From assembly GCF_014174215.1 (NCBI RefSeq), contig NZ_JABEQL010000032.1, positions 1 to 42,529 of the forward strand: 42,529 bases of DNA. Direction: 5' to 3'. Positions 13,339 through 32,430 of this stretch are shown piece by piece. The stretch is from Gluconacetobacter tumulicola. Lineage in GTDB: Bacteria; Pseudomonadota; Alphaproteobacteria; Acetobacterales; Acetobacteraceae. Numbering within the stretch: position 1 is the first letter of the stretch; the number at the start of each line of letters is the position of its first letter. The position numbers and the translations under genes were made by a program. The notes under the pieces were generated by a model. That model saw only the letters and a program-made list of their open reading frames with translations. It had not been told where the DNA came from and made no database searches.

Positions 13339-14142
13339 ATGACCGAAGTCCATCCCCCAATCTGGCCCCGCAGTGGCGCGCCGCGCCGCCTGTGCTTCAT
13401 CTCGGCCCCGAACGATGTCGCCCGCCGGACGCAGGACGAGCTGGTCGCCCGTTACGGCCAGTATGCCCCGCCAGACGCGGACGCCGTCATCTGCCTGGGC
13501 GGCGACGGCTTCATGCTGGAGACGCTGCACAGCATGCTGGGCGAGCCGACGCCGGTCTACGGGATCAATTGCGGATCGGTCGGGTTCCTGATGAATCCGT
13601 CCGTGCCCGACGACCTGCCGGCCCATCTGGCCCATACCCAGGCCGCGACGCTGCACCCGCTGCGCATGTGTTCGGTCGACCGCGCGGGCGTGGAAACCAA
13701 GGCCCTGGCCCTGAACGACGTGTTCCTGTTCCGCCAGACCCGACAGGCCGCGAAGATCGAGATCGAGGTCGATGGCCGGGTCCGCATGCCGGAACTGATC
13801 TGCGACGGCGTGCTGGTCGCCACCCCCGCCGGGTCGACCGCCTACAACCTGTCCGCCCACGGGCCGATCGTCCCGCTCTCGGCCAATCTCCTGCCCCTGA
13901 CCCCGATCAGCGCCTTCCGCCCCCGGCGCTGGCGCGGCGCGCTGCTGCCCTCCACCGCGCGGGTGACGCTGACGATCCTGGAGAGCGAGAAACGCCCCGT
14001 CGCGGCCGTCGCCGATTTCACGGAAGTCCGCGACGTGGTGCGGGTCGAGATCGCCGAGGACCGCACCCTCCACGCCACCCTTCTGTTCGACGCCGACCAG
14101 AGCCTGTCGGAACGGATACTCGCCGAACAGTTCACGGTGTAG
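13339..14142 (+). CDS. nadK: NAD kinase
   Basis: Phosphorylates NAD+ to NADP+. The 267-residue protein has the hallmark GGDG at 54-57 (AVICLGGDGFMLETL), then YGINCGSVGFLMN, the ALNDVFLFR segment in place of the usual NE/D motif, and the second conserved stretch DGVLVATPAGSTAYNLSAHGPIV. The C-terminal beta region is present (SAFRPRRWRGALLP). Start ATG 13339 is taken from the family N-terminus; a ribosome-binding site is weak. Its last 11 bases overlap the end of the convergent LysR gene. Confidence 0.96.
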   Translation: MTEVHPPIWPRSGAPRRLCFISAPNDVARRTQDELVARYGQYAPPDADAVICLGGDGFMLETLHSMLGEPTPVYGINCGSVGFLMNPSVPDDLPAHLAHTQAATLHPLRMCSVDRAGVETKALALNDVFLFRQTRQAAKIEIEVDGRVRMPELICDGVLVATPAGSTAYNLSAHGPIVPLSANLLPLTPISAFRPRRWRGALLPSTARVTLTILESEKRPVAAVADFTEVRDVVRVEIAEDRTLHATLLFDADQSLSERILAEQFTV

Positions 14143-15091
14143 GAACGCCCCCGGCCCCCATCACGCCGATCAGGTGGCGCGCCAGGGCGTCGGCGGCGAC
14201 CGGCAGCGGCGCCGTGGCGTGGGCGTACAGGCCCAGATTGCTGACGACCCGCTTCCGGTGATGGTCGATCGGGATATGCTGCAGCGTCCCGGCCCGCAAT
14301 TCGGGCTCGATCCCGACCTGGGTCATGAACGCGACACCCGCGTTGCGCAGCACGAGCTGCTTCATCAGTTCGATCGACCCCACGTCGTACCGGCGGCATT
14401 CCTGGCGGATGGCATGCGGCAGCAGGGCGTCGAGCTGCGCGCGATTGGCGAAATTCGATTTGGGCAGGATGACGGGCATGTCGAAATAATCCGACAGGGC
14501 GGAGACCCGCCGCACGGCCAGGGGAGAATCGGGACGCACGATCGCCCCCAGCACGAAGGGTGCGACGTGAAGCTGCCGGATGTCCGGCTGCTTGCTGACT
14601 TCGAACGCCAGGCCCATATGCGCGTCGCCGCGTGCGATGGCACCGGGGATGTCGCGTGTATCGAGGACCTGCACGCCGACCGTGATCCTGGGATGGCGGC
14701 GGGCCAGCAGCCCGATGGCCTCAGGAAGGATGAAGGCGCATAATCCTTCCACGGTCGCAACCTCCACATGCCCCGCGTGCAGGCCGCGCAACTGGTCGAG
14801 GCGCGACGACACCTCCTCGGCATCGCGCAGGACCAGCTGGACATGATGCGCCAGCAATTCTCCAGCACTGGTCAGCCGCATGCCCGACGACAGGCGCATG
14901 AAGAGGGGGGTGCCGAGTTCCTCTTCCAGGTAAAGGATCTGCCGGTTGACGGCCGATGACGCGACGTTCAGCCGCCGCGCCGCCTCGCGGACCGATCCCG
15001 CGCGATGCACCGCATCGAAATAATGAAGAACGGCCGAATGAAGACGCAGCTTGGTCTTCCCCGGCACCGTCTTTTTCGTAGAAGCCGCCAT
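14132..15091 (-). CDS. LysR-family transcriptional regulator
   Basis: A 319-residue LysR protein. The N-terminal winged helix-turn-helix runs about 12-70 (HYFDAVHRAGSVREAARRL, then NVASSAVNRQILYLEEELGT). The effector-binding domain follows (about 100-310), with VEVATVEGLCAFILPEAI at its first strand. Start is uncertain: ATG 15091 (MAAST) or ATG 15100; the frame is open further upstream, but those residues are not LysR-like. It is divergent from the MFS-PyrK-PyrD-amidohydrolase operon, and a T-N11-A palindrome lies between, so it most likely senses that pathway's substrate. Confidence 0.94.
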   Translation of the reverse strand: MAASTKKTVPGKTKLRLHSAVLHYFDAVHRAGSVREAARRLNVASSAVNRQILYLEEELGTPLFMRLSSGMRLTSAGELLAHHVQLVLRDAEEVSSRLDQLRGLHAGHVEVATVEGLCAFILPEAIGLLARRHPRITVGVQVLDTRDIPGAIARGDAHMGLAFEVSKQPDIRQLHVAPFVLGAIVRPDSPLAVRRVSALSDYFDMPVILPKSNFANRAQLDALLPHAIRQECRRYDVGSIELMKQLVLRNAGVAFMTQVGIEPELRAGTLQHIPIDHHRKRVVSNLGLYAHATAPLPVAADALARHLIGVMGAGGVPTP

Positions 15092-15179
15092 GTCGCGCAT
15101 ATCCCGCCGATCCGCGAACAGCCCCCTGTCGCCCGCACGCATGATACCCCGCGCTCCCCCGGCAGGGTATGCCGCAGCC

Positions 15180-15196
15180 GATGCCGTTTCGGCATC
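15180..15196. promoter_or_regulatory. Candidate LysR operator (T-N11-A palindrome)
   Basis: Perfect inverted repeat GATGCCG-TTT-CGGCATC. It contains the LysR core T-N11-A inside ATGCCGTTTCGGCAT. It lies about 90 bases upstream of the lysR start and 172 upstream of the MFS start, the usual place for a regulator that represses itself and activates the divergent operon. The call rests on pattern and position only. Confidence 0.55.
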
Positions 15197-15367
15197 AGCT
15201 TGCCCTAAAATCGATGCTTTCCAGCACAGGCCGCCCGTTCCTACGTTACGGACGCGGACTGGAAATTCCTCCGGGTTTGCGGGCAGCATCCACCATTGAT
15301 CACCGCCCGTCCCGAAGCGACGCCACGTCGACCCTCCGCGGGGCAGAGAGGAATTGGACCGTTTCGC

Positions 15368-16603
15368 ATGACTTCCCGAGTAATCTCTCCATTACCCGAA
15401 CAATCGCGGCCTGCCCGTGCCCGGCTTCCATGGGCCAGTGTCGCGGGGTCGGCCGTCGGCTATGCGATGGACGGCTTCGATTTCCTGCTGCTTGGCTTCG
15501 TCATGCCCTCCCTGGTCAAGGATCTTCACCTTGACATGGTACAGGGCTCCTGGCTGGTCACCGCCACGCTGCTGGGCACCGTCGCCGGCGGGCTGGGCTT
15601 CGGCCTGCTGTCGGATGCACTGGGTCGGATTCGTGTCCTGGCCATCAGCATCCTTGTCTTCGCCCTTTTTACCGGCCTGTGCGCCTTCGCGCATTCCTAT
15701 GCCGAATTGCTGGCCTGTCGCGTGGCCGCAGGGGTCGGACTGGGCGGAGAATTCGGGATCGGCATGGCGCTGGTGGCCGAATCCTGGCCGCCGGCCTATC
15801 GCGCCCGGGCCTCGTCCTATGTCGGCCTCGGCTGGCAGGCGGGCGTCTTTCTCGCGGCGATCTCCACCCCGCTGCTGCTGCCGCTGATCGGCTGGCGCGG
15901 CATGTTCCTGCTCGGCGCGGTTCCGGCGCTGGTCGCGGTCTTCATCCGGCGCGGCTTGGCCGAACCGGCGGGCAGCCCGCGCCCGGCGGCCTCCGCCCGA
16001 CCGGGGCTGTCATTGCGCCCCCTCCTGGGCAGCGCGGCCGCGCGGCGCACCGCGCTCGGCATCCTGGTTCTCTGCTCGGTTCAGAATTTCTGTTATTATG
16101 GCGTCATGATCTGGCTGCCGAACTATCTGGCGGGCCATTTCGGATATACCCTGACCCGCACGGGACTGTGGACGGCCACGACCGTCCTGGGCATGGCGGC
16201 GGGCATCGCCTCCTTCGGCCACGTGGCCGACAGGCTGGGGCAGAAAATCGCCTTCCGGACCTGGATGTGCGGCGCCGCGATCATGGTCGTCGTCTATTCC
16301 CAGATGACCACGCCGCCGGGCCTGCTGGTCGCGGGCGCCGCCATGGGCTTCTTCGTCAACGGCATGATCGGCGGCTACGGCGCCCTGATCAGCGATTCCT
16401 ACCCCGCGACCATACGCGCCACCGCCCAGAATCTCCTGTTCAACGGCGGCCGGCTGGTCGGCGGATTCGGGCCGGTGGTGATGGGCGCACTGTCCGTCTC
16501 GTGGGGAATCGGCAGGACGATCGCCGTCCTCTCGATCCTCTATCTGATCGATATCGCCGCGCTGGCCCTGATCAGCGACACGCAGGAGACACCGGCATCA
16601 TGA
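15368..16603 (+). CDS. MFS transporter, aromatic acid:H+ symporter-like
   Basis: Inner-membrane importer of 411 residues with 12 predicted transmembrane segments. TM1 has GYAMDGFDFLLLGFVMP, the DGFD motif of the AAHS/metabolite:H+ symporter branch. The TM2-TM3 loop reads GLLSDALGRIRVL (the usual DrxGRR motif), and GGEFGIGMALVAE lies in TM4. The central loop (about 205-235) is Pro/Ala-rich. ATG 15368 is the only plausible start. The stop overlaps the pyrK-like start (ATGA), so the carrier is translationally coupled to the oxidoreductase. By context the cargo may be orotate, a dihydropyrimidine or a hydantoin. Confidence 0.92.
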   Translation: MTSRVISPLPEQSRPARARLPWASVAGSAVGYAMDGFDFLLLGFVMPSLVKDLHLDMVQGSWLVTATLLGTVAGGLGFGLLSDALGRIRVLAISILVFALFTGLCAFAHSYAELLACRVAAGVGLGGEFGIGMALVAESWPPAYRARASSYVGLGWQAGVFLAAISTPLLLPLIGWRGMFLLGAVPALVAVFIRRGLAEPAGSPRPAASARPGLSLRPLLGSAAARRTALGILVLCSVQNFCYYGVMIWLPNYLAGHFGYTLTRTGLWTATTVLGMAAGIASFGHVADRLGQKIAFRTWMCGAAIMVVVYSQMTTPPGLLVAGAAMGFFVNGMIGGYGALISDSYPATIRATAQNLLFNGGRLVGGFGPVVMGALSVSWGIGRTIAVLSILYLIDIAALALISDTQETPAS

Positions 16604-17415
16604 CCGTCCCTTCCGGCCGCCATCCCCGTCCCGTCGACGAAATCGCGACCATCGTCAGCCATGACCTGGTGAACCGCGAATATCGGCACATGACGGTGCG
16701 GGGAAGCGCCGCCCTGGCCGCGGGCATGCCCGGCCAGTTCTACCAGATCGCCTGTTCGCCGGCCCGCGCGGACATCCCCTATCTGCGCCGCCCGTTCAGC
16801 CTGTACGCCGCGCGCCCGGACGATGCGGAAATAGAATTCCTCTACAAGGTGACAGGCGAAGGCACGCGCAGCCTGGCCCTGATGGCGCCCGGCGACCCGA
16901 TGCGCATCCTCGGCCCGCTGGGACATGGCTACCGCCTCGCCCCGCACTGGAAGCATGTGGCGGTGGTGGGGCGCGGTGTCGGCCTGGCGACCCTGCACCC
17001 GCTGGTCGCCGCCGCGCACGCACGCGGCATCGGCGTCACGCTCATCGTTTCGGCGCGCGACGCGGCGCTGGTTCCGCCCCTGCCCACGGGTCCGGACGGG
17101 ATCGAGATCCATGTCGTGACCGACGCGGCCGGGACCAGCGACCCGGCCCGGGTCGAGGCACTCCTGCGCGACCTCGTCCGCCAGGGGCGCTGCGATGCCT
17201 TCCTGACCTGCGGTTCGGCGCGCCTGCTGCGGGTGCAGCAGACACTGGCCGCCGAATACGGGCTGGACGGCCAGGTGGCGATGGAACAGCAGATGGCCTG
17301 CGGCCTGGGCATGTGCTTCTGCTGCGTCCGCGATTTCCGCGGTGCCGGCGGCATCGTTCACAAGCGGGTCTGCTGGGACGGCCCGGTCTTCGACCTGATG
17401 GACGCCGTGGCATGA
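16600..17415 (+). CDS. pyrK: Dihydroorotate dehydrogenase electron-transfer subunit (PyrK-like)
   Basis: FAD and [2Fe-2S] protein that passes electrons between NAD(H) and the PyrD subunit encoded next. 271 residues, close to the 262 of the Lactococcus protein. The ferredoxin-reductase-like FAD site is RRPFSLY (63-69). The nucleotide domain has AVVGRGVGLATLHPL, where the usual motif is GGGxGxxP. The cluster cysteines are Cys234, Cys239, Cys242 and Cys258, spaced as in PyrK; an extra Cys241 lies between. ATG 16600 overlaps the MFS stop, and the pyrD-like start overlaps this gene's stop (ATGA), so a tight stoichiometric complex is likely. Confidence 0.92.
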   Translation: MTVPSGRHPRPVDEIATIVSHDLVNREYRHMTVRGSAALAAGMPGQFYQIACSPARADIPYLRRPFSLYAARPDDAEIEFLYKVTGEGTRSLALMAPGDPMRILGPLGHGYRLAPHWKHVAVVGRGVGLATLHPLVAAAHARGIGVTLIVSARDAALVPPLPTGPDGIEIHVVTDAAGTSDPARVEALLRDLVRQGRCDAFLTCGSARLLRVQQTLAAEYGLDGQVAMEQQMACGLGMCFCCVRDFRGAGGIVHKRVCWDGPVFDLMDAVA

Positions 17416-18338
17416 TCGACATGCAGGTCTCCATCGGCGGGTTGCGCCTGAAGAACCCGGTCATGCCCGCCTCCGGCACCTTCGCCGAAGGGCTGGGCGA
17501 CGTCTTCGACCTCGACCGGCTCGGCGCCCTGGTCCTCAAGACCATCACGCGCGCCCCCCGCACCGGCAACCCGCTGCCGCGCGTCGCGGAGGCCACGTCG
17601 GGCATGCTGAACGCCATCGGCATCCCGTCGGCCGGCGCGCGTGATTTCCTGCACGACCACCTGCCGCATTACCGGCGGTGGAAGGCCCCCCTGGTCGTTT
17701 CCATATCCGCCCCCACCGCCATGGCATTCGCCGAACTGGCGGCCATGGTCGACGTACCCGGCATCGCGGCGATCGAGGCCAATATCTCCTGCCCCAATCT
17801 CGAGGCGGACGGCAGGGCGTTCGCCATGCATGCCGCCGGCACCGAGCGCGCCGTCCGCGCGGTGCGCCGCGCCACGCGGCTTCCGCTGTGGGTCAAGCTG
17901 TCGCCCAATGTCGGCGATATCGCCGAGATCGCCCGTGCCGCCCGCGACGGCGGCGCGGACGCGCTGGTGGTGGCCAACACGGTCCTGGCCATGGCCATCG
18001 ACACACGGACCTTCCGCCCCAGGCTCGGCAACGTCATGGGCGGCCTGTCCGGGCCCGCCATCAAGCCCATCGTCCTGCGCCAGGTCTATCAATGCGCGCG
18101 CGCCGTCGACCTGCCCATCATTGGCTGCGGCGGCATCGCGACCGCCGAGGACGCGGCCGAATACATGCTGGCCGGCGCCACGGCGGTACAGGTCGGCACC
18201 GCCACCTTCGTCAACAGCCGCGCGATGATCGAGATCCTCGAAGGGCTGGAACGGTACGGCGCCGCCCACGACCTGGCCCGCATCGCGGACCTGACGACAT
18301 CAGGCCTCTTTCCGTCCACCGTCCACAAGGACGCCTGA
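17412..18338 (+). CDS. pyrD: Dihydroorotate dehydrogenase, class 1B catalytic subunit
   Basis: FMN-containing TIM barrel of 308 residues that interconverts dihydroorotate and orotate. Class 1B features: LKNPVMPASGTF at the N-terminus, Lys43, GNPLPRVAE, the substrate loop MLNAIG (65-70), catalytic Cys127 in NISCPN, Lys162 in WVKLSPN, then GGLSGPAIKPI and IIGCGGI with the FMN-phosphate loop near VGTATF. There is no C-terminal 4Fe-4S domain, so it is not a PreA dihydropyrimidine dehydrogenase. With PyrK it can work with NAD(H), including in the reductive direction. An aerobic alphaproteobacterium normally makes UMP with a quinone-linked class 2 enzyme, so this pair in an accessory operon points to catabolism. 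That role is inferred. Confidence 0.93.
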   Translation: MIDMQVSIGGLRLKNPVMPASGTFAEGLGDVFDLDRLGALVLKTITRAPRTGNPLPRVAEATSGMLNAIGIPSAGARDFLHDHLPHYRRWKAPLVVSISAPTAMAFAELAAMVDVPGIAAIEANISCPNLEADGRAFAMHAAGTERAVRAVRRATRLPLWVKLSPNVGDIAEIARAARDGGADALVVANTVLAMAIDTRTFRPRLGNVMGGLSGPAIKPIVLRQVYQCARAVDLPIIGCGGIATAEDAAEYMLAGATAVQVGTATFVNSRAMIEILEGLERYGAAHDLARIADLTTSGLFPSTVHKDA

Positions 18339-18341
18339 CCG

Positions 18342-19643
18342 ATGAACGCTACCCCGACCCGCATGCCGCATGGTCCGGCCCCCTCCCTGTTCGCGGGCGC
18401 CCCGGCGCTGGCCCGCCGCCTGTTCGCCGAATTGCAGGCGGCGGGGAGCGACGGGGTCGGGATCACGCGCCGCAGCTATGGCGACGGCGAAACCCGCGCC
18501 ATCGAGATCATCGAGGCCCATGCCCGTGCCTACGGCCTGGAGACGACGCGCGACGCCGCGGCGAACCTGGTCGTCACGCTGCCGGGCCGGGACCCCGACC
18601 AGCCGGCGATCGTCACCGGATCACACATGGATTCGGTGCCCCAGGGCGGCAATTACGACGGCGCCGCCGGGGTCGTCGCCGGTCTGGTCGCAATGATCTC
18701 GATCCGGCGGGCCGGCATCGTACCACTCCGCACGATCCGCCTGCTGGGCCTGCGGGGCGAGGAAAGCGCGGAATTCAGCGTGCCCCATCTCGGCTCCTCG
18801 GCCCTGTTCGGGCAGATCACGCCCGGGATGCTCGCCTTGCACTCCAGCGACGGACAGGCGGACCTGGCCACCTGCATGGCGCGCGTGGGCGCCGACCTGG
18901 CGCGGGTGTCGCGCGGCGACAGGCTGGTGGATCCCGCCGGCATCGCCTGCTGGCTGGAACTGCATATCGAACAGGGGCCGGTCCTGGAGGCACAGGACCA
19001 GGCGGTGGCCGTCGTCAGCGCCGTGCGGGGCAATGTCCGCTACCCGTCGGTCACCTGCACGGGGCAGGCCGGACATGCCGGGGCGGTCCCCCGCGCGTTG
19101 CGGCATGACGCGGTCCTGGCCACCTGCGCCATCCTGTCGAAAATGGAAACAGCTTGGGAGAGCCTGCTGGAACAAGGCCACGACCTCGTCATGAATGCGG
19201 GGCGCTGCCAGACCGATGCTGCGCGCCATGCGATTTCACGCATTCCCGAACAGGCATCCTTCTCCTTCGAATTCCGCAGCCAGTCCGAAAAGACGCTGCG
19301 CCTGTTCGACGACCTGTTCCAGCAAACCTGCCGGACCGTCGCCGCCGCGCGCGGGGTCGCGGTCGAGACGGGACCATGCAGCACCGTGCAGCCCGGGGTG
19401 ATGGATGCCGGATGGCGCGAACGACTCTGCGCGATCATGGTCGATCTCGGCATTCCCCCGGCCACACTCCCAAGCGGCGCGGGCCATGACGCGACGATCT
19501 TCGCCCGGGCCGGCATTCCTTCGGCCATGCTGTTCGTCCGCAACCAGCATGGATCGCACAATCCGTGCGAATCCATGGAAATCGACGATTTTCTCACGGG
19601 TGTGGAGGTCCTTCTCCACGCCCTCCTCAGCCCGCCGCCCTGA
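18342..19643 (+). CDS. M20-family Zn amidohydrolase (N-carbamoyl-L-amino acid hydrolase / allantoate deiminase type)
   Basis: 433-residue amidase of the HyuC/AmaB/beta-ureidopropionase group, which removes the carbamoyl group from N-carbamoyl amino acids. Metal ligands are visible: His95 (GSHMDSVP), Asp106 (NYDGAAG), Glu140-Glu141 (RGEES), His208 (ELHIEQGPVLE) and His406 (HGSHNP). The lid/dimerisation domain spans about 225-340. The gene starts 3 bases after pyrD. If the operon acts on orotate, this enzyme would be the ureidosuccinase that turns N-carbamoyl-L-aspartate into aspartate. Allantoate or other N-carbamoyl substrates remain possible. Confidence 0.93.
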   Translation: MNATPTRMPHGPAPSLFAGAPALARRLFAELQAAGSDGVGITRRSYGDGETRAIEIIEAHARAYGLETTRDAAANLVVTLPGRDPDQPAIVTGSHMDSVPQGGNYDGAAGVVAGLVAMISIRRAGIVPLRTIRLLGLRGEESAEFSVPHLGSSALFGQITPGMLALHSSDGQADLATCMARVGADLARVSRGDRLVDPAGIACWLELHIEQGPVLEAQDQAVAVVSAVRGNVRYPSVTCTGQAGHAGAVPRALRHDAVLATCAILSKMETAWESLLEQGHDLVMNAGRCQTDAARHAISRIPEQASFSFEFRSQSEKTLRLFDDLFQQTCRTVAAARGVAVETGPCSTVQPGVMDAGWRERLCAIMVDLGIPPATLPSGAGHDATIFARAGIPSAMLFVRNQHGSHNPCESMEIDDFLTGVEVLLHALLSPPP

Positions 19644-19693
19644 CGGGCCGGCGGCGCCCCCTCGCAATCATTTCGTTCCGGGACAAATACGAC

Positions 19694-22192
19694 ATGAACA
19701 GGCAATGTTTTCTGTATCTCTCGCTCTCCCTGCTGATGACGACATCCCTGTCGGGGCTGGCGCAGGCGGCGACGGCCAGGAAGCACGCGGCGAGCGCAAA
19801 GGCCGCGCCACCCCCCGCCCAGCAGCCGGCACCGGCCTCCACGCCCCTGCCCGCCGCCCGGACCGTGCCCCATCCCGCGCCGCGCCCCATGCAGGCCGAG
19901 GAAATCCGGGTGGTCCACGGCACCAATGCCGGCCAGGGCGCCCTCGCCACGACCACGGAAACCCACAGCACGACATCGGTCGTGATCGTCTCGGGCGCCA
20001 CGCTCATGAAGACCGGCGCAACCAACGTCATGGAGGCGCTGGCCCAGAGTTCCCCGTCCATCACCTCGCCGCCGCTCGGCGCCACGGGCAGCAACGCCCT
20101 GGTCCAGACCATGCAGCTTCGCGGCCTGTCGGCTGACGACACGCTCATCCTCGTCAATGGGCATCGCCGGCATATCGGGGCCAATTTCAACCCCAATGCC
20201 GGCCCGAACTGGGGCACCGAACCCACCGACATCGCGCTGATCCCGATCTCCGCGATCGACCATATCGAGGTCATCACCGAAGGTGCGACCGCCCTCTACG
20301 GCCAGGATGCGATCGCCGGCGCGGTCAATATCGTCCTGAAACAGGGCACCGACGGCGGCACGATCAATTTCAAGAACAGCGGCTTTTACGCCGGGGACGG
20401 CCAGGCGCTGGACGGATCGGCGCATTACGGCATGGCGGTCGGCCAGCGCGGCAGCTTCAACATTTCCGCCCAGGTCACGCATCAATTGCCCACCAACCGC
20501 AGCGGCCTGTTCAACGGCACCCTCTATCCCGCCCTGGCCGGCGGCGTGCCCGACCCCCGCAACGCGACCGACAGCCGCGACGTGCAGCGGATCATGGGCA
20601 TTCCGAAATCCACGATGGAGACGATCAGCGCGGTGACGAACCTGCCCGTCACGAACACGATCAATCTCTACAACACCTCCACCTTCTCCCACCGCGCGAG
20701 CCATGTCGCCCTGACCTACCAGTCGGCGGCGTCGTCCCTGACCACCCCGGCGCTGTGGCCCAACGGCATGCTGCCCTATCTGGGCCTGGACCAGTATGAT
20801 TTCGAGACCGATACCGGCTTCAAGGGCACGCTGGGCGGCTTCGCGTGGGACGTCTATACCAACTTCGCCCGCGACCAGCAGGATTATTCGACCATCCACA
20901 CCAACAACATCACGCTCGGCACCATGAGCCCGACGGATTTCGATGACGGCGCCTCGATCGTCTCCGAACTGACATCCGGCTTCCGGGCCTCGCGCGCATT
21001 CGCGACCGCGCTGCTGCCCCGGCCGATCAACCTCGATTTCGGTTTCGAATACCGGCATGACACGTTCCAGATGACCGAGGGCGAATACGGCTCGTGGTAC
21101 GGCCGCGGCGCCTCCGATCACGCGGGCAACCAGCCCTTTGCCGCGACGAACCAGAATCGCGACGTCTATGACGGGCACGTCAATCTCGAATTCTACCTGA
21201 CGCCCAAATGGGAATGGACCATCGGCGGCCGCAGCGTCAGCTACAACAACCTGGCGACCATCGAAACCGGGTCGGTCGGAACACGCTATAATTTCTCGAA
21301 GCATTTCGCCGTCCGGGCCAGCTTCAACACCGGCTATCGTCCGCCCACGCTCGGACAGCAATATTTCTACTACAACGCGCCCTTCGCCGGTTATTCCCAG
21401 GACCAGCTCCCCAGCAACAGCGAAGCCGCGCGCGCGCTGGGCGGCGGGCCGCTCAAGGGCGAATATTCGCGCAATTACAGCATCGGCTTCGAGGCCTCGC
21501 CGATCGAGAACATGCACCTCATCGGCAATCTCTATTACATCGCGATCAACGACCGCCTTGCCAGCACCACCGCGCTGGGCGGACCGGCAGTGGCCAACAT
21601 CCTCAGCCAGGCCGGGCTGGGCGGCGTGACCTATGCGTCCTATTACACCAACCCCGTCAATACCCAGACCTATGGCGGCGATTTCAGCCTCGACTACCTG
21701 TGGAACACCGGACGCTACGGATCGTTCGATTTCCGCGTCGGCGTCAATTTCTCCGACAACGAAATCCGCAGCTACAACAAGACGCCGGCGGTCCTGAAAA
21801 ATCTCGGCCTGCAAAGCTTCAATACCTATGCCGAGGAAATCCTGCTCCATACCAGCCCCAAGAACCGGGAAAATCTCGATATCACCTGGAAATATGGACG
21901 CTGGTCGATCTTCGCGCAGGAACAGCGCTATGGCTCGACCCTGTTCCTGCCGTCACCCGCCCTGCCCGGCGTATCGGAAAATCCGGCGATGCTGACGAAT
22001 CTCGAAGTGTCCTACCGCATCCTGCCGCGCTGGGCCGTCGCCGTCGGCGGACGCAATATCGGCAACAAGTACCCCACGCGCGTTCCCTACGCCATCCGTG
22101 GAAAATTGCAGAACCAGTCGCTTTATTCCTATTTCGGACCCTATGGCTTCAGCGGCGGCATGTATTACGTCCGCACGTCGCTCGATTTCTGA
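19694..22192 (+). CDS. TonB-dependent outer-membrane receptor
   Basis: 832-residue outer-membrane transporter. A signal peptide (MNRQCFLYLSLSLLM... to about residue 26) is followed by an Ala/Pro-rich linker and the plug domain (about 75-200: MEALAQSSPSI, MQLRGLSADDTLILVNGHRRH, then IDHIEVITEGATALYGQDAIAGAVNIV). The rest is a 22-strand type beta-barrel ending in RTSLDF with the terminal aromatic needed for assembly. It begins 50 bases after the amidohydrolase gene and is probably the last gene of that operon. The substrate is unknown; context suggests a nitrogenous heterocycle or its complex. Its last 28 bases overlap the convergent ABC gene. Confidence 0.95.
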   Translation: MNRQCFLYLSLSLLMTTSLSGLAQAATARKHAASAKAAPPPAQQPAPASTPLPAARTVPHPAPRPMQAEEIRVVHGTNAGQGALATTTETHSTTSVVIVSGATLMKTGATNVMEALAQSSPSITSPPLGATGSNALVQTMQLRGLSADDTLILVNGHRRHIGANFNPNAGPNWGTEPTDIALIPISAIDHIEVITEGATALYGQDAIAGAVNIVLKQGTDGGTINFKNSGFYAGDGQALDGSAHYGMAVGQRGSFNISAQVTHQLPTNRSGLFNGTLYPALAGGVPDPRNATDSRDVQRIMGIPKSTMETISAVTNLPVTNTINLYNTSTFSHRASHVALTYQSAASSLTTPALWPNGMLPYLGLDQYDFETDTGFKGTLGGFAWDVYTNFARDQQDYSTIHTNNITLGTMSPTDFDDGASIVSELTSGFRASRAFATALLPRPINLDFGFEYRHDTFQMTEGEYGSWYGRGASDHAGNQPFAATNQNRDVYDGHVNLEFYLTPKWEWTIGGRSVSYNNLATIETGSVGTRYNFSKHFAVRASFNTGYRPPTLGQQYFYYNAPFAGYSQDQLPSNSEAARALGGGPLKGEYSRNYSIGFEASPIENMHLIGNLYYIAINDRLASTTALGGPAVANILSQAGLGGVTYASYYTNPVNTQTYGGDFSLDYLWNTGRYGSFDFRVGVNFSDNEIRSYNKTPAVLKNLGLQSFNTYAEEILLHTSPKNRENLDITWKYGRWSIFAQEQRYGSTLFLPSPALPGVSENPAMLTNLEVSYRILPRWAVAVGGRNIGNKYPTRVPYAIRGKLQNQSLYSYFGPYGFSGGMYYVRTSLDF

Positions 22193-26445: not shown

Positions 26446-28641
26446 TCACTTGTTATCAGGCAGCGTGTAAACCACCAGCGCATCACTGACCGGGGTCATC
26501 ATGAAATGATGGCCACCCGCCATGATGGCCACATACTGCTTGCCCTTGTACTCATACGTCATGGGCGTGGCCTGCCCGCCACCCGGCAGCACGTCGTTCC
26601 ACAGTTCCTTGCCGCTTTTGGCATCGAACGCATGCAGCATGTTGTCGGTGGTGGCACCGACAAACACCACGCCACCCGCCGTAATCACCGGCCCGCCATT
26701 ATTGGGCGTGCCGATCGTCACGGGCAGATAGGTCGGCACACCCCACGGACCGTTGGCCCGGGCACTGCCCAGCGGATGCTGCCACAGCACCTTGCGCGTG
26801 TGCATGTCGATCGCCGTGATCATGCCGTAAGGCGGCTTGTTGCACATCATGTGCGTGTACTGGTTCCAGAACGGCGAAACCACGATGCCATACGGCGTGT
26901 CGGCCATGGCGCCATTGCCTTCCGCCCCGCCACCGCCAGGTTTGAAATTGGGATCGTCGATCGGCATCAGGCCCAGCGCATCGGCCTTCTTGCGCGTGAC
27001 GAGCTGATCATACATCGGCGTCACGTTCCAGTTGGCGATCAGCACGCCCGTCTTCGGATCGTACGCCATGCTGCCCCAGTCGCTTCCACCGTTATAGCCA
27101 GGATATTCGATCCACGGCCTGTCGACGCTGGGGGCCGTGAACTCGCCCTCATATTTGGCACGGCGGAATTGCAGGCGGCAGAAGAGCTGATCGATGGGGG
27201 ACATCCCCCACATGTCGCTTTCCTTCAGGTCCGGCAGGCCCAGGCGCGGCATGCCGACCGACCAGGGCTGCGTGGGCGAACGCGGATCGCCCTCTACATC
27301 AGTCTCCACCGGGGCCGGACGTTCCTCGACCGGCAGGATCGGCTTGCCGTCGCGGCGATCGAGCACGAAGGTCTGGCCGCGCTTGGTCGGCACCACCAGG
27401 GCCGGCACCGGGCCGTCCTGGCCGGGGAAGTCGATCATGGTCGGCTGCGAGCCGATATCGTAATCCCAGACATCCTTATGCACGGTCTGGAACACCCAGC
27501 GCGGCGAACCGGTCTTCACATCCAGCGCCACGATCGCGGACGAAACCTTGTTCTCCTCCGGCGAGCGCATGGCGGAATAATAATCGGCCGCCGAATTGCC
27601 GGTCGGGACATAGACAAGGCCCAGCGCATTGTCGCCCGTCATGGTCGCCCAGGAATTGGGCGTGCCACGGCTGTAATGCTGGCCTTCCGCGGGCTCGCCA
27701 TGCTGGTCCGGGCGATTGACGTCCCATGCCCACAGGAATTTTCCCGTCTCGGCGTCATAGCCACGAATCACGCCCGACGGCGCCCAGCGGCGCTGGCCAT
27801 CCAGCACTTCGTGATTCACCACGATCGCGCCGTTCACGATCGGCGGCGGTGCCGTCATGGACACGAAGCCCGGAACGGATTCCCCCATGCCCTTCATCAG
27901 GTTGACCTGGCCGTGATCGCCGAAGCCTTCGCACAATTTGCCGGTATCGGCATCGACCTCGATCAGCCGCATGTCCAGCGTGCCTTCGAGGATCCGGTTA
28001 TGGCAGGGCTCCCCCTCAGACACGGTGGAGGACGTGTAATACACCACCGCCTTGCAGGCTGCCGTATAGGGAATGCTGGCATATTTCACGCCGGCCTCGT
28101 GCCGCCAGATTTCCTTGCCGGTCGCCGGGTCCAGCTTCACGATGTCGTTCATGGCCGTACACATATACAGCCCGTCGCCCACCTTGATGGGGGTACTCTC
28201 GGCGGCCCATTTGTTCACCTGGCCCGGCGCCGGCTTGCTGCCGGTATGATAGATGAATGCGCGCGTGAGCTGCCCGACATTCCGGGGCGTGATCTGCTCC
28301 AGCGGGGAAAAGCGCGTGGCGTCGGTATCCCGCCCGTAGGCAGGCCAGTCATCATGCGCCGGATGGCTGCTAATCTGCTCGACGGCAGGTGTGGCCTCAC
28401 CGGGCTCGGCCGGCGGTCCATCGGGAATATTCGCGGCATTGACCCCGGGCGCCTGCGGCGCAAAAGGCGACGGGCCTGCAAATTTGTCACTGGGTTTCTT
28501 CCCGGGCGCATCCGCGTCTCCCGGCCCGGGCGGGGCCTCCTTGTAGGCACTCTGGGCCCGAGCCGGCGCGATGCCTGCCGTCGCGGACAGAAGCACGAGG
28601 CCACACAATGCCGTGGCGGCAGAAAGATCCGTCCTGGGCAT
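26446..28641 (-). CDS. sldA: PQQ-dependent polyol (glycerol/sorbitol) dehydrogenase large subunit, copy 1
   Basis: Periplasmic quinoprotein that oxidises polyols and passes electrons to ubiquinone through its membrane subunit SldB. 731 residues. Signal peptide to about residue 29 (APARA/QS). Beta-propeller repeats with many W motifs. Conserved family stretches are visible: WPAYGRDTDATRFSPL, KWAAESTPIKVGDGLY, ESVPGFVSMTAPP, RYYSRGTPNSWA-type segments (HYSRGTPNSWATMTG), WDYDIGSQPTMIDFPG, PTKRGQTFVLDRRDGKP, EYPGYNGGSDWGSMAYDP and VAIMAGGHHFM. The ATG shares one base with the sldB stop (TGATG), so translation is coupled. Residues corresponding to 27020-27547 are identical at DNA level to copy 2. 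Substrate specificity among glycerol, sorbitol, arabitol and gluconate cannot be told. Confidence 0.93.
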   Translation of the reverse strand: MPRTDLSAATALCGLVLLSATAGIAPARAQSAYKEAPPGPGDADAPGKKPSDKFAGPSPFAPQAPGVNAANIPDGPPAEPGEATPAVEQISSHPAHDDWPAYGRDTDATRFSPLEQITPRNVGQLTRAFIYHTGSKPAPGQVNKWAAESTPIKVGDGLYMCTAMNDIVKLDPATGKEIWRHEAGVKYASIPYTAACKAVVYYTSSTVSEGEPCHNRILEGTLDMRLIEVDADTGKLCEGFGDHGQVNLMKGMGESVPGFVSMTAPPPIVNGAIVVNHEVLDGQRRWAPSGVIRGYDAETGKFLWAWDVNRPDQHGEPAEGQHYSRGTPNSWATMTGDNALGLVYVPTGNSAADYYSAMRSPEENKVSSAIVALDVKTGSPRWVFQTVHKDVWDYDIGSQPTMIDFPGQDGPVPALVVPTKRGQTFVLDRRDGKPILPVEERPAPVETDVEGDPRSPTQPWSVGMPRLGLPDLKESDMWGMSPIDQLFCRLQFRRAKYEGEFTAPSVDRPWIEYPGYNGGSDWGSMAYDPKTGVLIANWNVTPMYDQLVTRKKADALGLMPIDDPNFKPGGGGAEGNGAMADTPYGIVVSPFWNQYTHMMCNKPPYGMITAIDMHTRKVLWQHPLGSARANGPWGVPTYLPVTIGTPNNGGPVITAGGVVFVGATTDNMLHAFDAKSGKELWNDVLPGGGQATPMTYEYKGKQYVAIMAGGHHFMMTPVSDALVVYTLPDNK

Positions 28642-29024
28642 CACGCAATTCCCCTCTGTGCCAAAGATGTTTTCTGAAGGCGGCGCAGAACGGGAATGGT
28701 CAGCACCACGAGAACGGCAATCAGCGTCGGTCCCAGCACGCGCGGCAGAAGCCCCCAGCCGTCAAACCCGACCTCCCACAAGGCCCACGGCCAGGTCAGC
28801 AGCCATGCCAGCAGATACAGAAAGGCCCCGGCAACCGAGCCCATCAGCATGAGAATACCGCCGGCGATAATGGCAGCGCCCGCCACGACATAGTAAAGCG
28901 ACCCACCGAGCAGGGCCAGCTCAGCACCCATGATCAACAGGGGAAGCCCAAGAAGAATGAGCAGTACCGCAACCGCGCACGTCGCCCATTCCGAGGCCCT
29001 TCGAGGTCTGTATAAACCCGCCAT
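28641..29024 (-). CDS. sldB: Polyol dehydrogenase small membrane subunit, copy 1
   Basis: 127-residue hydrophobic protein with four to five membrane segments. Recognisable SldB stretches: ELALLGGSLYYVVAGAAI, GAFLYLLAWLLTWPWALWEVG, LLPRVLGPTLIAVLV and LTIPVLRRLQ. It anchors SldA and hands electrons to ubiquinone. GGAG lies 9 bases before ATG 29024. The sldB-sldA order and coupling match known acetic acid bacterial glycerol/sorbitol dehydrogenases. Nearly the same protein is encoded at 31762-32145. Confidence 0.92.
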   Translation of the reverse strand: MAGLYRPRRASEWATCAVAVLLILLGLPLLIMGAELALLGGSLYYVVAGAAIIAGGILMLMGSVAGAFLYLLAWLLTWPWALWEVGFDGWGLLPRVLGPTLIAVLVVLTIPVLRRLQKTSLAQRGIA

Positions 29025-29578: not shown

Positions 29579-31762
29579 TCACTTGTTGCCAGGCAGGGCG
29601 TAAACCACCAGCGCATCACTGACCGGGGTCCTCATGAAATGATGCCCGCCCGCCATGATGGCGACATACTGCCTGCCCTTGTACTCATACGTCATGGGCG
29701 TGGCCTGCCCACCGCCCGGCAGCACGTCGTTCCACAGTTCCTTGCCGCTTTTGGCATCGAACGCATGCAGCAGATTGTCGGTGGTGGCACCGACAAACAC
29801 CACGCCACCGGCCGTCACCACCGGCCCGCCATTATTGGGCGTACCGATCGTCAGCGGCAGATAGGTGGGAATGCGCCACGGGCCGTTGGCCCGGGCACTG
29901 CCCAGCGGATGCTGCCACAGCACCTTGCGCGTGTGCATGTCGATCGCCGTGATCATGCCATAGGGCGGCTTGCTGCACAGCAAGCGCGTGTACCGGTTCC
30001 AGAACGGCGAAGCCATGATGCCATACGGCGTGTCGGCCAGGGCACCTTTGCCTTCGGTCCCGCCACCGGCCTTGAAGCTGGGATCGTCGACCGGCATCAG
30101 GCCATCGGCTTTCCTGCGGGTCAGGATCTGATAGACCGGGGTCACGTTCCAGTTGGCGATCAGCACGCCCGTCTTCGGATCGTACGCCATGCTGCCCCAG
30201 TCGCTTCCACCGTTATAGCCAGGATATTCGATCCACGGCCTGTCGACGCTGGGGGCCGTGAACTCGCCCTCATATTTGGCACGGCGGAATTGCAGGCGGC
30301 AGAAGAGCTGATCGATGGGGGACATCCCCCACATGTCGCTTTCCTTCAGGTCCGGCAGGCCCAGGCGCGGCATGCCGACCGACCAGGGCTGCGTGGGCGA
30401 ACGCGGATCGCCCTCTACATCAGTCTCCACCGGGGCCGGACGTTCCTCGACCGGCAGGATCGGCTTGCCGTCGCGGCGATCGAGCACGAAGGTCTGGCCG
30501 CGCTTGGTCGGCACCACCAGGGCCGGCACCGGGCCGTCCTGGCCGGGGAAGTCGATCATGGTCGGCTGCGAGCCGATATCGTAATCCCAGACATCCTTAT
30601 GCACGGTCTGGAACACCCAGCGCGGCGAACCGGTCTTCACATCCAGCGCCACGATCGCGGACGAAACCCTGTTCTCCTCCGGCGAGCGCATGCCAGAGTA
30701 ATAATTGACGGCCGCATTGCCCATGGGGACGTAAACAAGCCCCAGCCCATCGTCGCCCGTCATGGGGGCCCAGGAATTGGGCGTGCCGCGGCTGTAATGC
30801 TGGCCTTCCGCGGGTTCACCGTGGTCGTCCGGGCGGTTGACGTCCCATGCCCACAGGAATTTTCCCGTTTCGGCGTCATAGCCACGAATCACACCCGAGG
30901 GCGCCCAGCGGCGCTGGCCATTCAGCACCTGATGGTTCACCACGATCGCGCCGTTCACGATCGGGGGCGGTGCCGTCATGGACACGAAGCCCGGAACGGA
31001 TTCACCCATGCCCTTCATCAGGTTGACCTGTCCGTGATCGCCGAAGCCTTCGCACAATTTTCCGGTATCGGCATCGACCTCGATCAGCCGCATGTCCAGC
31101 ATGCCTTCGAGGATCCGGTTATGGCACAACTGCCCCGCCGGCACGGTCGACGCGGTATAATATACAACCCCCTTGCAGGCCGCCGCATAGGGAATACTGG
31201 CATATTTCACGCCGGCATTATGCCGCCAGACCTCCTTTCCGGTTTCCGGGTCCAGCTTTACTATGTCATTCATGGCCGTACACATATACAGCCCGTCGCC
31301 CACCTTGATGGGGGTGGTCTCGGCGGCCCATTTGTTCGCCTGGCCCGGCGCGGGCTTGCTGCCGGTATGATAGATGAATGCGCGCGTGAGTTGCCCGACA
31401 TTCCGGGGCGTGATCTGCTCCAGCGGGGAAAAGCGCGTGGCGTCGGTATCCCGACCATAGGCAGGCCAGTCATCATGCGCCGGATGGCTGCCGATCTGCT
31501 CGACGGCAGGTGTGGCCTCACCGGGCTCGGCCGGCGGTCCATCGGGAATATTCGCGGCATTGACCCCGGGCGCCTGCGGCGCAAAAGGCGACGGAGCCGC
31601 TAATCCCTTACCTTCTTTTTGTTCGGATGCATCCGCCTCACTCAAGCGGGGCGGGGCCTCCCTGTACGCGCTTTGGGCCCGAGCCGGTACCATGCCTGCC
31701 ACTGCGGACAGAAGCACGAGGCCGCACAATGCCGTGGCAGCAGCGGGATTGACCGCCGCCAT
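29579..31762 (-). CDS. sldA: PQQ-dependent polyol dehydrogenase large subunit, copy 2
   Basis: 727-residue paralogue of the gene at 26446-28641, with a signal peptide ending near VPARA/QS and the same propeller motifs. It differs mainly in the pro-region after the signal peptide (EAPPRLSEADASEQKEGKG) and in two loops: NAAVNYYSGMRSPEENR where copy 1 has NSAADYYSAMRSPEENK, and VYQILTRRKADGLMPVDDPSFKAG where copy 1 has a longer loop (MYDQLVTRKKADALGL...). The second loop was probably shortened. Changed loops may mean altered substrate range. TGATG coupling to sldB is kept. Both copies look functional. Confidence 0.93.
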   Translation of the reverse strand: MAAVNPAAATALCGLVLLSAVAGMVPARAQSAYREAPPRLSEADASEQKEGKGLAAPSPFAPQAPGVNAANIPDGPPAEPGEATPAVEQIGSHPAHDDWPAYGRDTDATRFSPLEQITPRNVGQLTRAFIYHTGSKPAPGQANKWAAETTPIKVGDGLYMCTAMNDIVKLDPETGKEVWRHNAGVKYASIPYAAACKGVVYYTASTVPAGQLCHNRILEGMLDMRLIEVDADTGKLCEGFGDHGQVNLMKGMGESVPGFVSMTAPPPIVNGAIVVNHQVLNGQRRWAPSGVIRGYDAETGKFLWAWDVNRPDDHGEPAEGQHYSRGTPNSWAPMTGDDGLGLVYVPMGNAAVNYYSGMRSPEENRVSSAIVALDVKTGSPRWVFQTVHKDVWDYDIGSQPTMIDFPGQDGPVPALVVPTKRGQTFVLDRRDGKPILPVEERPAPVETDVEGDPRSPTQPWSVGMPRLGLPDLKESDMWGMSPIDQLFCRLQFRRAKYEGEFTAPSVDRPWIEYPGYNGGSDWGSMAYDPKTGVLIANWNVTPVYQILTRRKADGLMPVDDPSFKAGGGTEGKGALADTPYGIMASPFWNRYTRLLCSKPPYGMITAIDMHTRKVLWQHPLGSARANGPWRIPTYLPLTIGTPNNGGPVVTAGGVVFVGATTDNLLHAFDAKSGKELWNDVLPGGGQATPMTYEYKGRQYVAIMAGGHHFMRTPVSDALVVYALPGNK

Positions 31763-32145
31763 CACGCAATATCCTTCTCTGCCACGGCTATTTTCTGAAG
31801 GTGGCGCAGAACCGGAATGGTCAGCATCACAAGAACGGCAATCAGCGTCGGTCCCAGCAGGCGCGGCAGAAGCGCCCAGCCATCAAACCCGACCTCCCAC
31901 AAGGCCCAGGGCCAGGTCAGCAGCCACGCCAGCAGATACAGCAGGGCCCCGGCAACCGAGCCTCTCAGCATGAGGATGCCACCTGCAACAATGGCTGTTC
32001 CTGCCAGGATATAGTAAAGCGACCCGCCAAGCAGGGCCAGCTCGGTCCCCATGATCACCAGGGGAAGTCCAAGAACAATGAGCAGTACCGCAACCGCGCA
32101 CGTTGCCCATTCCGAGGCCCTTCGGGGCCTGTATAAACCTGCCAT
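31762..32145 (-). CDS. sldB: Polyol dehydrogenase small membrane subunit, copy 2
   Basis: 127 residues, nearly identical to the first SldB through the membrane segments. It diverges at the C-terminus (VLRHLQKIAVAEKDIA against VLRRLQKTSLAQRGIA). ATG 32145 is chosen to match copy 1 and follows GGAG; nine more in-frame codons upstream are unlikely to be used. The spacer 32146-32430 is AT-richer, holds no gene, and should carry the promoter of this sldBA pair. Confidence 0.92.
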   Translation of the reverse strand: MAGLYRPRRASEWATCAVAVLLIVLGLPLVIMGTELALLGGSLYYILAGTAIVAGGILMLRGSVAGALLYLLAWLLTWPWALWEVGFDGWALLPRLLGPTLIAVLVMLTIPVLRHLQKIAVAEKDIA

Positions 32146-32430
32146 CCGATCATGCTCCAGAGGAAACACCACCCCCCAACATTATGTGGCGCATCAGGTT
32201 CTCTGGAGAGCGACTGATCGTAATGAGTTCTTCAAGACTCAGCACGCTCTAACACGTTCATTCGTCTCGATATTTGAGACAATTCTTAAAAATTCCCAAT
32301 GATCGGCAGACGTTCACGATCACGGAAAATCCTGTTTGTTTCCTCCATTCCCATATTTTTGAAAAACGAAAAAATAACGAAAAACTTTCGATCCCATCAG
32401 ATCAAACCAGACGCCGAACCGGGCGTTCGA

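Follow-up and report, generated by a model that had tools for sequence, protein, structure and literature searches.

Positions 1 to 42,529 of contig NZ_JABEQL010000032.1 from Gluconacetobacter tumulicola (assembly GCF_014174215.1), the whole stretch analysed here and hereafter the window, carry a LysR-type regulator gene opposite genes for a major facilitator superfamily (MFS) carrier, the PyrK and PyrD subunits of a class 1B dihydroorotate dehydrogenase (DHODH) and an M20-family amidase, with a gene for a TonB-dependent receptor downstream (Table 1). The contig (C32) belongs to a 4.29 Mb genome with a completeness rating of 100%. Open reading frames (ORFs) and family profiles confirm this gene set, which an initial annotation of the DNA had proposed, and all six genes are open, with no internal stops. 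The ATGA overlaps described at the MFS/PyrK and PyrK/PyrD junctions are present, 3 bases separate the PyrD stop from the M20 start, and 50 nt lie between the M20 stop and the start of the TonB receptor gene. The range originally assigned to the locus began at 15091; this is indeed a start codon of LysR, but because that gene is divergent the range omits nearly all of it. We consider it likely that the window genes form an inducible orotate-catabolic operon, and infer the direction of flux, the substrates and the regulation from the genes, their families, conserved residues and a recurring gene order.

Table 1. Features of the window and copies of a small cluster-end protein in related stretches
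Feature	Position	Strand	Basis and proposed role
LysR-type regulator	14132-15091 or 15100	-	Pfam HTH_1 and LysR_substrate above cut-off; divergent from operon
Divergent promoter/operator region (inferred)	15092-15367	.	Read from sequence
MFS carrier, aromatic acid/H+ symport-like	15368-16603	+	MFS_1 above cut-off; candidate orotate importer
PyrK, class 1B DHODH electron-transfer subunit	16600-17415	+	PF10418, 1ep3_B match, four invariant Cys
PyrD, class 1B catalytic subunit	17412-18338	+	NF005574 and TIGR01037 above cut-off; proposed orotate reductase
M20 hydantoinase/carbamoylase-family amidase	18342-19643	+	TIGR01879; proposed N-carbamoyl-L-aspartate hydrolase (ureidosuccinase)
TonB-dependent outer-membrane receptor	19694-22192	+	Plug and barrel domains above cut-off; possible outer-membrane step
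Two tandem paralogous gene pairs, ~730 aa + ~130 aa each	26446-29024 and 29579-32172
Small cluster-end protein	L203:11618-11947, L204:15270-15596, L205:11093-11419, L207:9113-9436
Small cluster-end protein	L208:8949-9275, L209:10743-11054, L210:10014-10340, L211:10059-10322

PyrD matches NF005574 (348.6 bits; cut-off 269) and TIGR01037 (296.1 bits; cut-off 270), and its best matches among solved structures are 5ue9 and 1ep1 (DHODB PyrD subunit). It carries the motifs KTIT43, NAIG67, NISCPN124, VKLSPN161 and ANT188, which we take to be orotate- and FMN-site residues. NISCPN occupies positions 124-129 and, as first annotated, includes Cys127. A PreA-type identity found no support, since the PreA model NF006183 gave 144.7 bits, under its cut-off of 335, and a Pfam scan found no ferredoxin domain. 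PyrK matches PF10418 (42.8 bits; cut-off 23.9), and its residues 13-264 align with 1ep3_B (DHODB PyrK subunit, E 4.9e-21); the NCBIfam PyrK equivalogs match it below cut-off only (best 116 bits; cut-off 314). The four cysteines previously noted follow the pattern C234-x4-C239-x2-C242-x15-C258, unchanged across 18 aligned PyrKs. By its PyrD model, Cys127 and the four-cysteine [2Fe-2S] site of PyrK, the pair is predicted to be a class 1B DHODH. The orotate couple lies near -0.23 V, above that of NAD, and an NAD-linked enzyme is therefore suited to orotate reduction.

The M20 protein matches TIGR01879 (260.2 bits; cut-off 204), and its best structural match is 3n5f, an N-carbamoyl-L-amino acid hydrolase. 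We compared 47 operon M20 proteins with five paralogues from the window's own genome, using the numbering of the window protein. Residues H95, D106, E141, H208, Q211, H245, R312, H382 and H406 are invariant in all 47 and all five, and we assume functional, metal-ligand roles for H95, D106, E141, H208, H382 and H406. The two groups differ at a pair of adjacent positions: position 299 is Ala, Ser or Thr in the operon proteins (15, 11 and 21 respectively; S299 in the window) versus Asn in 5/5 paralogues, and position 300 is Arg in 45 and Lys in 2 (R300 in the window) versus Val in 5/5. Of three aligned structures, 3n5f and 1z2l have Asn-Val here and 5tp4 has a gap. This Asn (Asn309 of yeast beta-alanine synthase) presumably touches the substrate, with the Arg 13 residues further on (R312) presumably binding the substrate carboxylate. 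An extra positive residue at position 300 would therefore fit a second carboxylate, and the [AST]-[RK] signature of the operon enzymes possibly marks a dicarboxylate substrate. From this signature and the gene context, we propose that the M20 enzyme hydrolyses N-carbamoyl-L-aspartate as a ureidosuccinase (EC 3.5.1.7).

Orthologous operons in other bacteria bear on the choice of substrate. In three Acetobacteraceae loci (L012, L133 and L143) a class II dihydroorotase gene (TIGR00856, 420-430 bits; cut-off 293) overlaps the end of the M20 gene by ATGA, and the L133 operon ends in an ATGA-coupled aspartate ammonia-lyase (NF008909, 712 bits, cut-off 510; TIGR00839, 634.6 bits, under its 681.2). 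The dihydropyrimidinase query alone did not detect the L012 gene of class II; reading the ORFs revealed it. When nine genomes were searched with TIGR00856, only those of L012, L133 and L143 scored above cut-off, that of L133 (G044) with a second copy elsewhere; because these genomes also carry pyrC_multi (321-349 bits), the operon dihydroorotase would be an extra copy. Outside the family, L187 and L194 have the order PyrK-PyrD-M20-PyrC-PyrE, preceded in L187 by TRAP carrier genes. A dihydroorotase lies within the operons of L012, L133, L143, L187, L194, L203, L204, L205 and L210; in L141, unlike these adjacent copies, the gene is several kb from the operon. The initial annotation had left the substrate as a pyrimidine or hydantoin. 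Since dihydroorotase follows M20 in orthologous operons and L133 adds an aspartase, orotate is favoured, and a related ring or hydantoin disfavoured.

The linkage of PyrKD to M20 recurs widely. A PyrD search produced a first set of 25 loci, three of them Gram-positive-type records (L032-L034) and 22 alphaproteobacterial, by name mainly Acetobacteraceae. M20 lies nearby in 20/22, the two without it (L024 and L025) both being from Rhodobacteraceae, while a LysR orthologue (53-58% identical) is present in 8/22 and MFS in 3/22. Each of the 22 genomes gives a further PF01180 match at 250-273 bits, its class not individually assigned. Among the family stretches L131-L150, M20 accompanies PyrKD in 17/20 (L149 being the same locus as L011); L137 and L140 stop at a contig end, and L134 is a diverged PyrKD without M20. 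The neighbourhoods of some loci are different. L025 places PyrKD beside a Rieske ring-hydroxylating oxygenase and an asparaginase-like gene, together with TRAP and xanthine-dehydrogenase-like genes identified by eye, and may belong to another ring pathway. In L192 a profile scan placed genes of the TauD dioxygenase and polysaccharide-deacetylase families next to PyrKD, with an XRE regulator, and L193 looks alike by eye. L191 has the order PyrK-PyrD-PyrE-PyrC-PyrE, without M20, one of its two PyrE genes being named by eye.

The cluster is also found on plasmids, where the M20 query matched 65 records at E <= 1e-80 and the PyrK query 77 at E <= 1e-20, 53 of them Klebsiella in each case. Nine plasmid stretches were examined in detail, including one of the 53 Klebsiella records. 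The order MFS-PyrK-PyrD-M20-dihydroorotase occurs on P. putida p716811-VIM, on a Variovorax sp. RA8 plasmid and on a V. paradoxus VAI-C plasmid, which adds LysR and a porin upstream and HTH and PyrE genes downstream. The Klebsiella plasmid has a divergent MFS and PyrK-PyrD-M20-PyrC-HTH; that of Roseomonas haemaphysalidis has LysR opposite MFS-PyrK-PyrD-M20-PyrE; those of Nitratireductor, Roseicitreum and Paracoccus have TRAP-PyrK-PyrD-M20-PyrE; and Agrobacterium pAt1 has only PyrK-PyrD-M20. Because the P. putida dihydroorotase is of the PRK09236 type (701 bits; cut-off 535) and those of Klebsiella and Variovorax are of the TIGR00856 type (411-434 bits), two dihydroorotase classes appear to have been recruited into one place. 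Across all 53 Klebsiella records the M20 gene shows at least 99% identity, and every record is annotated with a dihydroorotase overlapping it; 9/53 give milk as source, a figure that may reflect sampling bias. A megablast search of E. coli genomes for the Klebsiella stretch from PyrK to PyrC found no close copy. Taken with the alphaproteobacterial loci, the survey of gene order that the initial annotation had called for suggests that the association of PyrKD with M20, seen in relatives and plasmids of three proteobacterial classes, is not due to chance, although the low share of M20 in the class survey (below) counts against this. A small protein of about 103-109 residues is encoded at cluster ends in beta-, gamma- and some alphaproteobacteria (Table 1). 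Three copies scanned gave no Pfam match, and the window gave no match to the protein; in Agrobacterium pAt1 a homologous stretch is fused in frame within a 552-residue M20 ORF.

Regulator and carrier genes are shared to differing extents. When the window LysR was compared with the ORFs of three stretches of its own genome, the only match was the LysR beside the uracil-degradation cluster described below (35% over 288 aa). The MFS carrier scores 273.6 bits against TIGR00895, under its cut-off of 418.55, and is 56-62% identical to PyrKD-adjacent MFS carriers on five plasmids (P. putida, Klebsiella, two Variovorax and Roseomonas). The TonB receptor was rejected as a conserved part, with no match beside PyrKD in the first-set, family or class loci. 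Outer-membrane candidates elsewhere are a Porin_4 protein in V. paradoxus (176 bits), a weak Tsx match in the P. putida cluster (18.3 bits against a cut-off of 27.2) and a 421-residue Klebsiella protein, without Pfam match and barrel-like by eye. Since other clusters thus include a porin or candidate outer-membrane proteins, the TonB gene is a reasonable candidate for a part of the system.

According to the initial annotation, the lack of any other pyrD in the genome would have made this pair the biosynthetic enzyme. A PF01180 search of the genome gave four matches above cut-off, and a class 2, quinone-type PyrD was found on contig C10 (NF003645, 455 bits, cut-off 366; TIGR01036, 357 bits, cut-off 200), which removes this objection. 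A PreA on C15 (NF006183, 709 bits; cut-off 335) adjoins a dihydropyrimidinase (TIGR02033, 606 bits; cut-off 393), an M20 enzyme, a LysR and a PreT-like protein. The last was named from its position; its top NCBIfam hit, glutamate synthase, falls below cut-off. Judged by its genes, this cluster is the known reductive uracil route. C30 carries PyrE (NF001729, 388 bits; cut-off 245), and a TIGR00336 search of the genome for a second PyrE gave nothing further above 27 bits. Because the class 2 PyrD, PyrE and the uracil-degradation cluster sit elsewhere in the genome, PyrKD appears surplus to biosynthesis; a biosynthetic role for it is unlikely, and was rejected on the class 2 PyrD.

We can now outline a route that would probably make orotate a source of nitrogen and carbon. 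Orotate would enter through the TonB receptor at the outer membrane and then the MFS carrier at the inner membrane, and the NAD-linked PyrKD would reduce it to dihydroorotate with NADH, the opposite of the biosynthetic direction. A dihydroorotase, encoded within the operon in some relatives and here elsewhere, most likely on C14, would open the ring to N-carbamoyl-L-aspartate, and the M20 enzyme would remove the carbamoyl group to give aspartate, CO2 and ammonia. In L133, the aspartase could convert aspartate to fumarate and NH3. The divergent LysR is predicted to respond to orotate itself or to an intermediate. The presence of a class 2 PyrD and of dihydroorotase in orthologous operons lends overall support to the orotate-catabolism interpretation made initially.

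Several observations weigh against this reading. As already noted in the initial annotation, the window operon has no dihydroorotase; dihydroorotase and dihydropyrimidinase queries found none there or in 21/22 first-set loci, and adjacent copies are limited to 1/22 first-set loci (L012) and 2/20 family stretches (L133, L143). In the window's genome, dihydroorotase genes lie on C14 and C33, and the dihydropyrimidinase on C15. The pyrB-linked PyrC on C33 (L129:5680-6993) lacks the HxH metal motif and is probably an inactive partner; for this reason ring opening would most likely come from the PRK09060-type C14 enzyme (698 bits; cut-off 482), whose HVHLRDPG motif is intact and which is likely the working dihydroorotase. 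The C14 gene was rejected as operon-specific: 7/7 same-genus genomes searched that lack PyrK also have, in addition to the pyrB-linked type, a pyrC_multi match scoring 289-302 bits, even though in L141 one lies at a distance of several kb from the operon. The M20 enzyme belongs to a broad family in which the substrate is not readable from sequence. Several PyrKD loci in the family and class stretches have no M20, so PyrKD also serves other contexts; in the class survey (L187-L198, with L190 truncated where its contig stops and a weak PyrK match in L198), M20 is present in only 3/12 PyrK stretches. Counting the window's own genome, PyrK was found in 38/397 family-sample genomes at E <= 1e-30 and in 12/385 class-sample genomes at E <= 1e-25. 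At E <= 1e-30 it is absent from all 13 listed same-genus genomes; the operon is therefore sporadic and may have been acquired.

The orotate-catabolic reading leaves one main loose end, the PyrE-like genes. A PyrE-like second copy adjoins M20 in 19/22 first-set loci, and NF001729 detects two PyrE above 200 bits in 19/22 genomes of that set and one in G003, G015 and G016. This arrangement, like the canonical-looking PyrE beside PyrK-PyrD-M20-PyrC in L187 and L194, also fits salvage, in which PyrKD and PyrE would convert imported orotate or dihydroorotate to UMP and M20 would play a subsidiary part. We nonetheless regard salvage as unlikely. No PyrE match occurs in the window operon, L012, L133 or L143, the M20 enzyme would destroy the precursor, and the L133 operon terminates in an aspartase. 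Moreover, a loop Lys present in 23/23 housekeeping PyrE is replaced by Leu or Gln in 19/19 first-set operon copies (e.g. L010:10183-10860). Elsewhere, the operon copies have Leu, Gln or Ile at this position in L136, L138, L139, L148, L150 and L188, Arg in L209 and a shortened loop in L205 and L210, and keep the Lys in L131, L187, L191, L194, L207 and L208. These PyrE-like proteins may serve salvage or sensing, or may be pseudo-enzymes.

Slightly less probable again is a pathway in which the substrate of PyrKD is an analogue of orotate and the compound broken down is a related one (hydantoin, some other ureido acid or a substituted dihydroorotate). The resemblance of M20 to N-carbamoyl-L-amino acid hydrolase among solved structures, and the presence, beside PyrKD relatives in other loci, of genes for a Rieske oxygenase or for TauD and a polysaccharide deacetylase, would accommodate this, but relatives' operons contain an aspartase and dedicated dihydroorotases above equivalog cut-offs, and the orotate motifs of PyrD are canonical. 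Finally, that PyrKD is a transferred extra biosynthetic DHODH with neighbours there by chance is very improbable: plasmid PyrD annotations are tagged pyrimidine biosynthesis and class 1B enzymes are presumably biosynthetic in many Gram-positive bacteria, but the genome has its class 2 PyrD, and in three proteobacterial classes M20 keeps its link to PyrKD, as does MFS in five plasmid clusters.

Returning to orotate catabolism, we favour, with somewhat less confidence than for the window operon itself, a broader picture in which a mobile cluster has moved among alpha-, beta- and gammaproteobacteria, with plasmids of Klebsiella and Pseudomonas among its carriers. The [AST]-[RK] M20 clade would represent the ureidosuccinase gene, different lineages would have recruited different dihydroorotases and, for the outer membrane, a TonB receptor, a porin or perhaps a Tsx-like channel, and the small cluster-end protein (about 108 residues), which the Agrobacterium plasmid encodes as an M20 fusion, would be another component. 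The examined plasmid genes carry the annotations dihydroorotate dehydrogenase, in most cases tagged as pyrimidine biosynthesis, and ‘Zn-dependent hydrolase’ or amidase; databases may therefore conceal a catabolic trait. If our reading is correct, the operon M20 genes are candidates for N-carbamoyl-L-aspartate hydrolase; to our knowledge EC 3.5.1.7 has no assigned gene. It would also explain the surplus PyrKD in Proteobacteria that have a class 2 PyrD, and make orotate a testable nitrogen source. Orotate is excreted by cells and is present in milk. A search of open-licence literature found no account of such a cluster, in keeping with the initial view that the exact set is undescribed, and no paper on ‘ureidosuccinase’.

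Comparison with known systems places the proposed operon among familiar chemistries. The reductive uracil pathway on C15 (PreTA, dihydropyrimidinase, M20) has an analogous three-step logic with homologous M20 and LysR proteins, but is a separate cluster, with PreA in place of PyrKD, dihydropyrimidinase in place of dihydroorotase, and an M20 bearing Asn-Val rather than [AST]-[RK]. Biosynthetic DHODB (1ep1-1ep3, which we take to be from Lactococcus lactis) shares subunit make-up, sequence and active-site motifs with the window PyrKD, but differs in gene context; the window genome has a class 2 PyrD as well, and its PyrKD presumably runs in reverse. DHODH classes and M20 homology are discussed in PMC4016543, the relevant parts of which do not describe an orotate-degradation operon. 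E. coli and Salmonella take up orotate by DctA and use it as a pyrimidine source, according to the pertinent passages of PMC13328217; uptake and use of external orotate are common to both systems, but in the DctA route orotate goes to UMP through OPRT, whereas the window operon would yield aspartate and ammonia.

Reductive orotate degradation is classical chemistry in Clostridium (Zymobacterium) oroticum, which uses DHODH, dihydroorotase and ureidosuccinase (EC 3.5.1.7). The C. oroticum DHODH is listed as class 1B in PMC10395836. The clostridial system resembles the window operon in this DHODH class and in the reactions we predict. C. oroticum is an anaerobic Gram-positive fermenter, however, whereas the operon described here is Gram-negative and partly plasmid-borne, and is equipped with an MFS carrier, an outer-membrane protein and a LysR or HTH regulator.

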